A stretch of DNA of 64,000 nucleotides. Source: a virus. The stretch spans positions 1 to 64,000 of the IMG/VR virus record IMGVR_UViG_3300024999_000008. One strand, given 5' to 3'. Under the pieces are notes generated by a model. It saw only the letters and a program-made list of their open reading frames with translations. It was not told where the DNA came from and made no database searches. Made by a program: the position numbers and the translations under genes. Below are positions 1,805 through 8,965 of this stretch, piece after piece; positions within the stretch are counted from its first letter, which is position 1, and each line of letters opens with the position of its first letter.

Positions 1805-3559
1805 TCACCGTAAAAGGTTAAAAAGTTGTTCCTCAGTTATCTGAGGGATGTTGTAACGAGTTGCCTTTTCTACCTTGGTTCTTCCTGGAGCATCTCCGAC
1901 GACCAAGTAATTTGTTTCTCTCGTTACTCCAGATGAAAATTCATATCCATAGCCGTTCAAGATTTCGATCATAGTTTCTCGTGACTGGCTTAACGATCCG
2001 GTAATACAATAAATTGCTTTCGCTTCACTAGGGAGTGGGGCGAAAGAAAAGTTCTTCATCTCTTTAATAGCTTCTGTATAAATAGTTGCAGCAGTAATAA
2101 AACTGCGTTTAGCATTATCAGTTATGTGAATATTAATCTGGCCGGTTCTTAAATATTGACAAAGCCTCAAAGAGGATTTATATGCTAATCCTGGTAAGCC
2201 CAAACCTGCTACAAAGTGTGCCATTGTGCATTGATTATTCATTGAAAATACTTGTTCAGCAATGTTGCTATAAATCGTTACGCCAATCGTATTTATTATG
2301 TCTGGCACAATAGAATAGCTAAGTGGATCGAGAAGTGCCCAAGGCTTGGTTGATAGAACTGAATAACATTTTTCATTCTGGAGTAACTTTTCTATAATAC
2401 CTTCACCAACACCGTCTATTTTGATGCCTTTTTGAGAGTAGAAATAAGCAATGGAGACAATGGATTTTGCTATACACTTTTCTCCATTACAAACAAGATG
2501 CACTCCTTCCCAAGATAATATATTATTACATTTTGGACAAAAAGCTGGAAGTTGCGAATGTGCATTATTTTCAGAAGGATCTTTAACAATAATTATTTTA
2601 GGAATTATCTCTCCAGCTTTTCCTACAGTTATAATTGAATTAGATGTAATTCCTTTATTTATTATCCAAGCAGCATTATTGCCTGTTACGCGATTATTGG
2701 TAGTGCCACAAAGTTCAATTGGTTCATAGACAACAGTTGGAATTGCCCGACCGAGTCTACTAATGTTCCATTCGATATTAACAACTTTTGTTTCTTTAAC
2801 TTGGATTGGAGGTTTCCAGGCTATGCTCCAGTTATTGGTCTGACCATTATTACCTGCAACCAGTCGAACTTTTTCATCCGCTACCTTGATCATAAGTCCA
2901 TCCATCGGATAGATCTTTGACCATTTGTTATATGTTTCAAGCAGAAAATCTCCCATAGCTTCTAAGCTACCGGAGTATGTGTATTCTTCGAAGAGGTTGC
3001 CATGATTATGGGGGATAGCTGTCATCATGGCAGAAGGTTTGTCATATTTTCGATCTAGCCAGCCTGCGACTACATTTCTTGGATTTGCTCCATAGTCTGG
3101 GTTCCACTCACTCAGTGGGATAAGTATTTCAACTGGCTGAAAGTGCCTAAGCTGGAATGGAAACGTAATGTATGGCATTAAGTGCGTTATGTCTCGTCCA
3201 CATCTTCCGTCGCCTTCGAGAGTTATATTTACTCCGGTATCTGTAAGGGTTATAACTGCTGCACAGCCATCGTATTTGGGTTCGATCCGAAGTACGTAAG
3301 AGCCAAACCTTGTGAGGAATGGCTTAAGGTCTAGCATGTTGAATGCTTTGTTCGTTCCATATATTGGATGCTTGTGCCAGGATTTGCCTGTCAAAGCAGT
3401 CCGGCCTTGTGCGGTATGATAGAGGATATTATTATGGGGGTCTATGGCATGAAGTTGTTGCCATAACAGATCATATTCGCTGTCTGTCATGAATGGTATG
3501 CCAGAAGCATAGGCCATATTTGCTTGAGAGATTTCTTTTATGAGTTGTTCATGATTCAT
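1805..3559 (-). CDS. ligA: NAD-dependent DNA ligase (LigA type)
   Basis: The enzyme seals nicks in duplex DNA using NAD+. Domains in order: an Ia-like N-terminus (SEYDLLWQQL, about 27-36), the adenylation domain with the KYDG motif whose Lys95 is the expected AMP-accepting residue, an OB fold, a four-Cys zinc finger (CPKC and CNGEKC, about 336-358), helix-hairpin-helix repeats (GVGEGI), and a C-terminal BRCT domain (about 512-584, ending TEEQLFNLL). At 584 residues it is shorter than cellular LigA (about 670) yet keeps every domain type. It likely serves phage replication and repair. Confidence 0.93.
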   Translation of the reverse strand: MNHEQLIKEISQANMAYASGIPFMTDSEYDLLWQQLHAIDPHNNILYHTAQGRTALTGKSWHKHPIYGTNKAFNMLDLKPFLTRFGSYVLRIEPKYDGCAAVITLTDTGVNITLEGDGRCGRDITHLMPYITFPFQLRHFQPVEILIPLSEWNPDYGANPRNVVAGWLDRKYDKPSAMMTAIPHNHGNLFEEYTYSGSLEAMGDFLLETYNKWSKIYPMDGLMIKVADEKVRLVAGNNGQTNNWSIAWKPPIQVKETKVVNIEWNISRLGRAIPTVVYEPIELCGTTNNRVTGNNAAWIINKGITSNSIITVGKAGEIIPKIIIVKDPSENNAHSQLPAFCPKCNNILSWEGVHLVCNGEKCIAKSIVSIAYFYSQKGIKIDGVGEGIIEKLLQNEKCYSVLSTKPWALLDPLSYSIVPDIINTIGVTIYSNIAEQVFSMNNQCTMAHFVAGLGLPGLAYKSSLRLCQYLRTGQINIHITDNAKRSFITAATIYTEAIKEMKNFSFAPLPSEAKAIYCITGSLSQSRETMIEILNGYGYEFSSGVTRETNYLVVGDAPGRTKVEKATRYNIPQITEEQLFNLLR

Positions 3560-3571
3560 TAGATAAGCTCC

Positions 3572-3886
3572 TTAATTAGCTTCTACTAACTTTAAATCTA
3601 TCCAAGAAAGAGTATTATTATGAACTGGAATAATTATAAAATCCTTTTTACCTCTTTTTAATACAATCCTATCACTTTTATTTGGTCCAAACAAAGAAGC
3701 ATATTTTGGATTAATTACCATTTCTCCATAATACTTAATGACTTTATCAGTTTTTGGAATTTCAAATGCCTTAAAGATATAAACTACTTTACATTTAACT
3801 GGAAGTTTTGGATTTGGATTTTTTCTATTTGGCCTAACGGAATAATAAACTTCTGAACTAATTGTTATTTTAGTAAAATCCATCAT
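3572..3886 (-). CDS. Hypothetical beta-rich basic protein, 104 aa
   Basis: No family is recognised. It is rich in Lys, Val and Ile with a probable beta-barrel pattern. I take the first of two adjacent ATGs (MMDFTK), preceded by AGGAGA five bases upstream, rather than an upstream ATG at 3925 with no ribosome site. It lies directly upstream of the ligase gene in the same operon. Confidence 0.6.
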   Translation of the reverse strand: MMDFTKITISSEVYYSVRPNRKNPNPKLPVKCKVVYIFKAFEIPKTDKVIKYYGEMVINPKYASLFGPNKSDRIVLKRGKKDFIIIPVHNNTLSWIDLKLVEAN

Positions 3887-3974
3887 AATTTTCTCCTTTA
3901 AGAGATATTTATCTTTGCTAAACATTAATATTTTAGCAGATTAATTCTTAGTAAAGATAAATAAGCATAAAAGT

Positions 3975-4027
3975 TGCTGTTCACTTACTTGCAACCTATT
4001 CAACTGGTCGTTCATAAGTGAACAGCA
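3975..4027 (-). terminator. 13-bp perfect hairpin after the first tRNA-like gene
   Basis: Arms TGCTGTTCACTTA (3975-3987) and its exact complement (4015-4027) enclose 27 bases. On the leftward strand it follows the 3' end of the tRNA-like gene by about 12 bases and is followed by ACTTTTATG, a poor T-tract. It may be a 3' processing or stability element, or a weak terminator. One arm is part of the palindrome GTTCATAAGTGAAC (4010-4023) that recurs elsewhere in the window. Confidence 0.5.
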
Positions 4028-4039
4028 TGTTTTGCTTAA

Positions 4040-4198
4040 TAGCAAGGACAGGATTCGAACCTGTACGAAGTTTGATGTACCGTCTGCATCAACGAACTCT
4101 AGAAATTCTCAGCAGAAATTGTTTGTTCGGTATTCCAAGGTATTTTTTCGCTCGCCGCTACTTATCCCTTGCGCGTCTACCAGTTCCACCACCTTGCT
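4040..4198 (-). tRNA. Long tRNA-like gene (class II D-arm, about 159 nt)
   Basis: On the leftward strand the ends are textbook tRNA: acceptor strands AGCAAGG and CCTTGCT pair over 7 bp with discriminator A. The D-arm resembles Leu/Ser class tRNAs (GTGGAACTGGTAGACGCG). The T-arm is perfect (ACAGG, loop TTCGAAT, CCTGT). A CAAGG/CCTTG stem sits where the anticodon stem belongs, but its loop is 26 nt, and about 70 more nt separate it from the T-arm. A normal class II tRNA is about 85-90 nt. An intron, a giant variable region, or a non-decoding tRNA mimic are all possible. I cannot assign an anticodon. Confidence 0.55.
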
Positions 4199-4210
4199 AT
4201 TTATTTATTC

Positions 4211-4311
4211 CGATATCTTGTAGGCGTCACATCAACGCCTCGTTCAGAATGACATTGTTCCAGCAATGCCAGACCTAGCTAACTGAAAGTGGTAACTAGA
4301 CTCTAATATCG
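4211..4311 (-). ncRNA. Cloverleaf-shaped RNA candidate, module A
   Basis: A closing helix (CGATAT 4211-4216 with ATATCG 4306-4311) encloses three hairpins: AGGCGT/ACGCCT with a 7-nt loop, CATTG/CAATG with a 6-nt loop, and a CTAG/CTAG arm. The order and size resemble a tRNA cloverleaf, but the T-loop consensus TTCGA is absent. It lies just upstream of the long tRNA-like gene on the same strand, with no open frame of interest. Possibly a structured RNA or decayed tRNA; it could be chance pairing. Confidence 0.35.
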
Positions 4312-4344
4312 AATTAAACTTGATCATAAAGCTCCGTAATTAAA

Positions 4345-4445
4345 ATGAGTGGATAGTCTGTAGTTTCGTATCTTGTAATCTCAGCCTCGGCGGGACATCA
4401 CGGCCAGGTTCTACTGGTAGCAGACTGTTTACCTATTCCACTCAT
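4345..4445 (-). ncRNA. Structured RNA candidate, module B
   Basis: A 9-bp closing helix (ATGAGTGGA 4345-4353 with TCCACTCAT 4437-4445) is extended inward by AGTCTG/CAGACT (4355-4360 with 4421-4426) and a CCAG/CTGG hairpin (4404-4417). The leftward strand starts like a class II D-arm (GTGGAATAGGTAAACA) but has no T-arm. Together with module A it fills the gap between the tRNA-like gene and the next coding gene. Confidence 0.35.
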
Positions 4446-4456
4446 AGCTTTATTAA

Positions 4457-4879
4457 TTAAACAACTCTTGCTATCTCATTCCTGGGCTGACCAACTTTAA
4501 TCGGATTACCATCATCATCTGTACTCATTCCGTCATTAAAACTGAGTTCAGCCGTAAAGTTCAAACCGACCAGATCAGATTCGTCGGTTTCCTGGTCTGG
4601 GTCAAGTCCAAGTGCGCGAAGGAAATCTTTTACCATTCGCCACATGAGGTTATTCTTTTCCTCATCATCGCCCTGATAATCTTTGTAATTCCCATACCAG
4701 AGAGTGTGAAAAATAGTTGAAGCGTTATCTTCTCCGTCGACATTAATAATGAGTTGACAACCATACCTGCCAGTACGCTGAGACTTGGTTTCTTTTACCT
4801 TAGAGATGGTCAAATCATATTCGCCAGCTTCAACGGGGGCTTTATCAGGAATTTCGGACAGATTAGGAATCATAGACAT
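4457..4879 (-). CDS. DUF669-like / ssDNA-binding-like protein
   Basis: The 140-residue acidic protein has the layout of phage DUF669-type proteins: AGEYDLTISKVKETKSQ near the N-terminus, a beta-rich middle (YGCQLIINVDGE), and a helical stretch with WRMVKDFLRALGL. These commonly sit beside Sak4-like ATPases and RecB-like nucleases, as here, and are thought to act as single-strand binding partners. The ATG at 4879 (MSMIPNLSEIP) has GGAG eight bases upstream; an upstream frame extension to 4942 lacks a ribosome site. Family assignment is tentative. Confidence 0.5.
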   Translation of the reverse strand: MSMIPNLSEIPDKAPVEAGEYDLTISKVKETKSQRTGRYGCQLIINVDGEDNASTIFHTLWYGNYKDYQGDDEEKNNLMWRMVKDFLRALGLDPDQETDESDLVGLNFTAELSFNDGMSTDDDGNPIKVGQPRNEIARVV

Positions 4880-8680: not shown

Positions 8681-8699
8681 AATAACTCCTTATAATTAA

Positions 8700-8784
8700 G
8701 AAACCGATTCCAACATCGTCATGCTGGCGATACCTGTCAATTCAGGTCGAATGGTGCGCATGGACTTGCTATCCAATGCGTTTC
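8700..8784 (-). ncRNA. Cloverleaf-shaped RNA candidate, module C
   Basis: A GAAAC/GTTTC closing helix surrounds three hairpins: GCAT-GGA/TCC-ATGC with a 7-nt loop, ACCTG/CAGGT with a 6-nt loop, and ATCG/CGAT with a 9-nt loop. Total size is 85 nt, like a tRNA, but no D- or T-loop consensus is seen. It lies just downstream (leftward) of the second long tRNA-like gene, mirroring the arrangement at 4.2 kb. Confidence 0.35.
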
Positions 8785-8801
8785 CGGCAATAAAGATTAA
8801 A

Positions 8802-8956
8802 AGTAGTGGGCAGGATTCGAACCTGCATAGTCTTAAGGCACTCAATCTTTTCTCTTGACTCATATAGCATGATGTCTATACTGTTGCGTCGATACTCGCG
8901 AGTTTAGGCTAGGACCAACCCATATGCCTTGCGGCTACCAATTTCGCCACCACTAC
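8802..8956 (-). tRNA. Second long tRNA-like gene (class II D-arm, about 155 nt)
   Basis: Acceptor strands GTAGTGG and CCACTAC pair over 7 bp; the T-arm is perfect (GCAGG, loop TTCGAAT, CCTGC); the D-arm (GGCGAAATTGGTAGCCGC) is of Leu/Ser type. An anticodon-like stem AAGGCA pairs either with TGCCTT next to the T-arm, leaving an insertion of roughly 80 nt in the loop, or as AGGC/GCCT with a 16-nt loop. The discriminator base would be U, unusual for Leu or Ser. Length and layout match the gene at 4040-4198 (internal segments about 102 and 100 nt). Confidence 0.55.
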
Positions 8957-8965
8957 TTTACTAAT

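Follow-up and report, generated by a model that had tools for sequence, protein, structure and literature searches.

The genome of a tailed phage carries, on the minus strand at positions 4040-4198, an element that has the two ends of a tRNA and is about twice the normal length. This locus raises the question of whether such an RNA decodes, directly or after splicing, or acts in some other way. A preliminary description had left open an intron of unusual type, a giant variable domain, or a tRNA mimic that does not decode. The window that we analysed is a 64,000-nt stretch (positions 1 to 64,000) of a 68,416-bp virus record, IMGVR_UViG_3300024999_000008. Terminase, portal, NAD-dependent DNA ligase, and Sak4-like annealing protein were identified, and the phage also encodes a single-strand binding protein and a PD-(D/E)XK exonuclease. 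The nearest large terminases, which are ~50% identical, belong to EBPR podovirus 1 and a Chlorobiaceae phage. The element, hereafter E1, is flanked on one side by the gene for the single-strand binding protein and on the other by a small unknown gene.

tRNA ends around a pseudoknotted insert

The limits of E1 given in the preliminary description were exact. The 7-bp acceptor stem begins at the 5' end (4198) and is completed by the 3' strand at 4047-4041, with an A at position 73 (4040). The two strands, AATAGCAAGG (4192-4201) and CCTTGCTATT (4038-4047), continue this pairing by a 3-bp extension. The acceptor is followed by a leucine-type D-arm (TGGTGGAACTGGTAGACGCG, 4172-4191), and the T-arm (ACAGGTTCGAATCCTGT, 4048-4064) carries GTTCGAATC. 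E1 thus has the 7-bp acceptor of a tRNA, lengthened by extra pairs, and a D-arm and a T-arm whose loops are standard. These arms are of class II type, as had been described, and the fold is kept in L003, a related phage contig with an allele of E1.

A 107-nt insert stands in place of the class II anticodon arm and variable arm. At the position of the anticodon stem is the stem S1, CAAGG (4167-4171) with CCTTG (4136-4140). It closes a 26-nt loop, and ~70 nt then lead to the T-arm, in agreement with the dimensions first reported. Within the S1 loop, AAGT (4160-4163) pairs with ACTT (4071-4068) to form a second stem, S2, which turns the middle into a pseudoknot. The 3' strand of S2 lies 3 nt before the T-stem in E1 and 2 nt before it in L003. 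A sub-domain (4078-4132) is closed by TACCG (4132-4128) and CGGTA (4082-4078), in which a G-C pair is replaced by U-A in L003. The suggestion of a giant variable domain was therefore half correct: the 3' strand of a variable stem is at its class II place, but its partner is in the anticodon loop. Because the anticodon-position and variable-position stems interlock in this way (an H-type pseudoknot), no anticodon is available in E1.

Also in the insert is AGTAGCGGCGAGCGAA (4147-4162), kept in L003, which matches exactly a 16-nt motif from domain I of bacterial 23S rRNA; the LSU model confirmed this motif in L046. Copies were located at 4147-4162 of the window (minus strand), L003 971-986, L033 7968-7983, and L041 14830-14845. 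The motif may represent an rRNA hairpin that has been either captured or imitated. It also caps short hairpins in intergenic regions of two unrelated phages, near tRNA genes, and these two matches may be due to chance. Most matches to a looser pattern of the motif were chance matches in coding sequence.

Standard tools did not report E1. ARAGORN called no tRNA anywhere in the window, and Rfam gave no match to E1 at the gathering threshold and no tRNA match in 3500-4700 even at E ≤ 10. E1 escapes tRNA models because the insert defeats them. In the same phage lineage, the Rfam tRNA model RF00005 did accept one shorter relative, at L040 987-1087, with 36.3 bits where the gathering score is 29. 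The covariance search proposed earlier as a check thus found no tRNA structure for E1 itself, while shorter relatives scored as tRNA. The thermodynamic stability of E1 was not significant on its own (z = −1.1), and blastn against cultured phages returned only fragments of the D-arm.

Several other structured segments lie nearby on the minus strand. Just downstream of E1, a hairpin formed by GCTGTTCACTT and AAGTGAACAGC (3976-4026) shows four compensatory pairs relative to L003. It is conserved even at loci without E1 and is probably a separate feature, and pieces of it recur at other sites in the genomes of relatives. Upstream of E1 is a cloverleaf-like RNA of ~110 nt (4208-4320) without tRNA loop signatures, near-identical in three phages; one relative, G002, is missing both this RNA and E1. 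A structured intergenic stretch at 4336-4450, with the closing stem GAGTGGATA/TATCCACTC and a fold z of −2.1, is absent from L003.

Pairing and exchange at the same loci

A tRNA-like element was present at the E1 locus in two related phage contigs. The copy in L002 is near-identical to E1 but has lost 23 nt, including the 3' acceptor strand. The L003 allele differs from E1 in its acceptor and in most of its middle. When the pairs were compared one by one, eight had changed on both sides between E1 and L003 with pairing preserved. The acceptor accounts for four of these, its extension for one, and S1, S2, and S3 for one each, so that 5 of the 10 pairs of the extended acceptor were changed on both sides; one pair, in S1, was lost. 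Because pairing is kept by compensatory changes, we regard E1 as a selected RNA fold. This covariation excludes chance and is a strong argument against simple decay.

A second tRNA-like element had also been noted. We located it at ~8800-8958 (minus strand) by a T-arm search blind to the D-arm. This element, E2, has an S1 stem of AAGGC/GCCTT. Just downstream of it is a 97-nt leader (8698-8794, minus strand), a possible regulatory 5' UTR. The leader is also found, at 98% identity, in G001, which has no tRNA-like element there. Natural empty sites thus exist at both loci, in G002 for E1 and in G001 for E2. In G002, the E2 locus keeps its acceptor, T-arm, and flanks, whereas the middle is wholly different (E3). 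All five elements of the window's lineage, found or confirmed via the T-arm, carry a D-arm of leucine type. Only E1 has A73; E2 to E5 have U73, with acceptors of 9-10 bp.

A class of leucine-type elements in phages

We scanned viral contigs for a leucine D-arm placed 59-119 nt before a T-loop, which gave at least 120 matches; among those listed, dozens were long elements in which both the acceptor and the T-stem were paired. Of these long elements, about half (26/48, counting AGTTAGG) had in common the acceptor AGTCAGG/CCTGACT, a sequence that the search pattern did not contain. A scan of viral contigs for this subtype likewise gave at least 120 matches, and the subtype amounts to at least 225 elements, at least 209 of them distinct, on at least 142 viral contigs. 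Among the matches listed, the elements span 70-183 nt, with up to 10 copies on one contig. They stand among small genes and normal tRNA genes. U(−1), a 7-bp acceptor, and C74 are typical of the subtype, and A73 is found in 98 of 113 elements.

When one genome per bacterial or archaeal species (257 Gb) was scanned in this way, four matches resulted, all in metagenome-assembled genomes, and the class is nearly confined to phages. The data behind it are metagenomic DNA. Leucine-type elements, unannotated, are also found in Bacillus phages phi3T and vB_BauS_KLEB27-1, Leuconostoc phage Ln-9, Lactobacillus phage phiJL-1, Weissella phage WC29P3, and Flavobacterium phage FL-1. The leucine-type elements in phages of Gram-positive hosts, phi3T (L192), L194, L195, L197, and L198, have in common an unusual T-loop, TGCAAAT, with G at position 55.

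The leucine bias of the class is partly a matter of ascertainment, as the scans used a leucine D-arm pattern. Since a D-arm-blind search of contigs found other D-arm types as well, one of them a class I D-arm combined with an AGTCAGG acceptor, the class probably extends beyond the leucine type. Pseudomonas phage M5.1 (L202, 360-480), Escherichia phage G21-7 (L199), and crAssphage cr4_1 (L200) carry unannotated tRNA-like elements in which the D-arm is of another type and the anticodon region is enlarged or odd, which suggests that the phenomenon is not limited to leucine-type folds. The class is not present in Rfam 15 as a family of its own. We found no description of such RNAs in the open-access literature, which is weak evidence of novelty.

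In many elements, the S1 helix comes right after the D-arm, and bases in its loop pair with the stretch that immediately precedes the T-stem, forming S2. When the ends were held fixed, this topology outperformed dinucleotide shuffles across 135 non-redundant elements (KS p = 4e-14, Wilcoxon p = 2e-10), and a side-by-side (nested) control topology was enriched less (KS p = 7e-8, Wilcoxon p = 2e-4). The excess was sharpest in short middles, where 32% versus 12% reached p ≤ 0.05. The variable stem of a normal tRNA-Leu ends 2 nt before the T-stem. S2 ended at exactly this distance in 20 of 32 significant cases compared with 10 of 37 non-significant ones. Four relatives that share one framework carry four different S2 helices at one place: GATAAC/GTTATC, GGGTAC/GTACTC, GCGCAC/GTGCGC, and GGGTG/CACCC. 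Formal pair counting in one family gave 100% pairing with one compensatory pair, but the family has too few sequences for this to surpass its shuffles (86/500). For E1 alone, the pseudoknot was not significant by shuffling (p = 0.30), S2 being only 4 bp. S2 of E1 (AAGU/ACUU) is weak on its own and is suggested by the A-U to G-C exchange with L003 together with the class. With S1 after the D-arm and S2 joining the loop to the end of the middle, E1 fits the pseudoknotted leucine-type class. We consider the structure of E1-type RNA well supported; its function we infer.

Decoding capacity

A decoding arm consists of a 5-bp anticodon stem and a 7-nt loop with U33 and an anticodon, and the corresponding loop of E1 has 26 nt. 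U33 in register with the D-arm was found in 15 of 51 long elements, among the matches listed from the first scan, versus 12 of 15 normal-size tRNAs. In AGTCAGG-type elements, U33 occurred at base frequency (27/113, p = 0.59), and U33 together with a leucine anticodon in only 3 of 113. Real tRNA-Leu(UAA) and tRNA-Leu(UAG) genes are often present in carriers as well, so the tRNA-like elements do not replace tRNA-Leu.

An intron in the anticodon loop would preserve U33 and the anticodon. As neither is preserved, such an intron is very unlikely, and excision leaves no in-register anticodon in E1. A group I or other anticodon-loop intron was ruled out as a candidate, no anticodon being preserved. 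The intron option of the preliminary description thus found no support in relatives, which are without U33, a leucine anticodon, or a spliceable anticodon arm. The same features, not kept in relatives, support its alternative of a non-decoding mimic.

Possible functions

E1 is quite possibly a phage-encoded, non-decoding leucine-type (class II) tRNA mimic or decoy that acts in trans. In such a scheme, RNase P would cut E1 out of an operon transcript, and CCA would then be added. Maturation by RNase P and the CCA-adding enzyme is plausible because U(−1), A73, and C74 are typical of the main subtype. LeuRS neither needs nor reads the anticodon, so that charging would be possible where A73 is present, and LeuRS may charge relatives that have A73 and a 7-bp acceptor. 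The mimic would stay out of translation and occupy a host protein that reads the tRNA elbow and acceptor, candidates being a defence toxin directed against tRNAs, a synthetase, or a modification enzyme. The fast swapping of middles at fixed loci fits an arms race. Several points stand against this reading: U73 and the 9-10-bp acceptors of E2 to E5 are poor for LeuRS and for tRNA 3' processing, the pseudoknot of E1 by itself does not reach significance, the leucine bias is in part due to ascertainment, and the analysis of neighbours gave no target protein or linked gene. Clustering of neighbours for a linked gene returned only terminase genes, near six loci, which possibly reflects phage relatedness. 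In L079, L109, L110, L117, L130, and L172, the tRNA-like element has a terminase gene within 2.5 kb, and in L117 the element comes after a terminase-small-subunit-like gene.

More tentatively, we propose that phages hold a large unrecognised class of pseudoknotted class II tRNA mimics that are matured, perhaps charged like tRNA-Leu, and non-decoding, and that serve, diversified in up to ten copies per contig, as decoys for, or inhibitors of, the host proteins of defence and translation that bind tRNA. If right, a common phage RNA class has been overlooked, because it is rejected by tRNA finders and passed over in protein annotation. The class would then offer a new tRNA architecture with interlocked anticodon and variable stems, and a candidate set for RNA-based counter-defence or control of host translation. 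Its cultured carriers phi3T, Ln-9, phiJL-1, and FL-1 open it to direct testing.

The main rival, which we consider unlikely, is a cis-acting processing or stability element, in which a cut by RNase P (and RNase Z) between genes separates the upstream and downstream messages. The middle would then be free to vary, as these enzymes read only the acceptor and T-arm, and these two are indeed the most constant parts of the elements. The elements are also intergenic, mostly co-oriented, and often start 5-20 nt after the stop codon of an upstream gene on the same strand, and the window copies lie just upstream of conserved leaders. However, the leucine-type D-arm, A73, and the pseudoknot are retained although RNase P needs none of them, and up to 10 copies occur inside tRNA clusters, where real tRNAs already do the job. 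This retention and these multiple copies favour a role in trans.

An attC-like DNA recombination site or cassette boundary is improbable. Constant ends with a variable middle, location after stop codons, up to 10 elements in a row, presence or absence among relatives, and swaps of the middle would all suit such a site, but the compensatory pairs are of RNA type with G-U tolerance, the D- and T-loop signatures are those of a full tRNA, and no integrase is linked. It is very improbable that E1 is a decaying tRNA pseudogene or a chance assembly of tRNA-like pieces. ARAGORN is blind to E1, the element comes and goes among close relatives, and L002 is without the 3' acceptor strand; against this stand the eight compensatory pair changes versus one loss, and arms and topology that are conserved class-wide. 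We give just as little credence to a Y RNA of the YrlA type acting with a Ro60/Rsr protein. Y RNAs are the known tRNA-mimicking non-coding RNAs of bacteria and phages (described at second hand in PMC12282133), but a TROVE protein was not found in the genome of the window or its relatives, and Rfam gave no Y RNA match. Least probable of all is a tRNA-Leu gene with an unusual ~70-nt intron, spliced to a decoding tRNA, for which the overall excess length and the anticodon-stem position of S1 might speak, but which does not accord with the unpreserved U33 and leucine anticodon in relatives, the inability of one excision to rebuild an anticodon arm in E1, the wholesale swaps of the middle at one locus, or the proper tRNA-Leu genes in many carriers.

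Comparison with known systems

Like tmRNA, E1 has a pseudoknotted insert between tRNA ends; unlike it, E1 has a leucine D-arm, whereas tmRNA is an alanine-type partial tRNA. tmRNA was rejected as an identity for E1 on account of this D-arm, the lack of a tag reading frame, and the lack of an ARAGORN or Rfam call. The elements resemble YrlA as non-coding tRNA mimics of bacteria and phages, but differ in having no Rsr/Ro60 partner (none was found) and no Rfam match. They also recall the phage tRNAs that counter tRNA-cleaving defences such as PARIS, whose genes likewise lie in early operons or tRNA clusters of phages; those tRNAs decode, whereas E1-type elements cannot. With class II tRNA-Leu they share the acceptor, the leucine-type D-arm, the T-arm, a 3' strand of the variable stem a few nucleotides before the T-stem, and, in E1 and most relatives, A73. 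They depart from it in having interlocked stems in place of an anticodon, a length of 70-183 nt, and, in E1 and its kin, acceptors of 9-10 bp.
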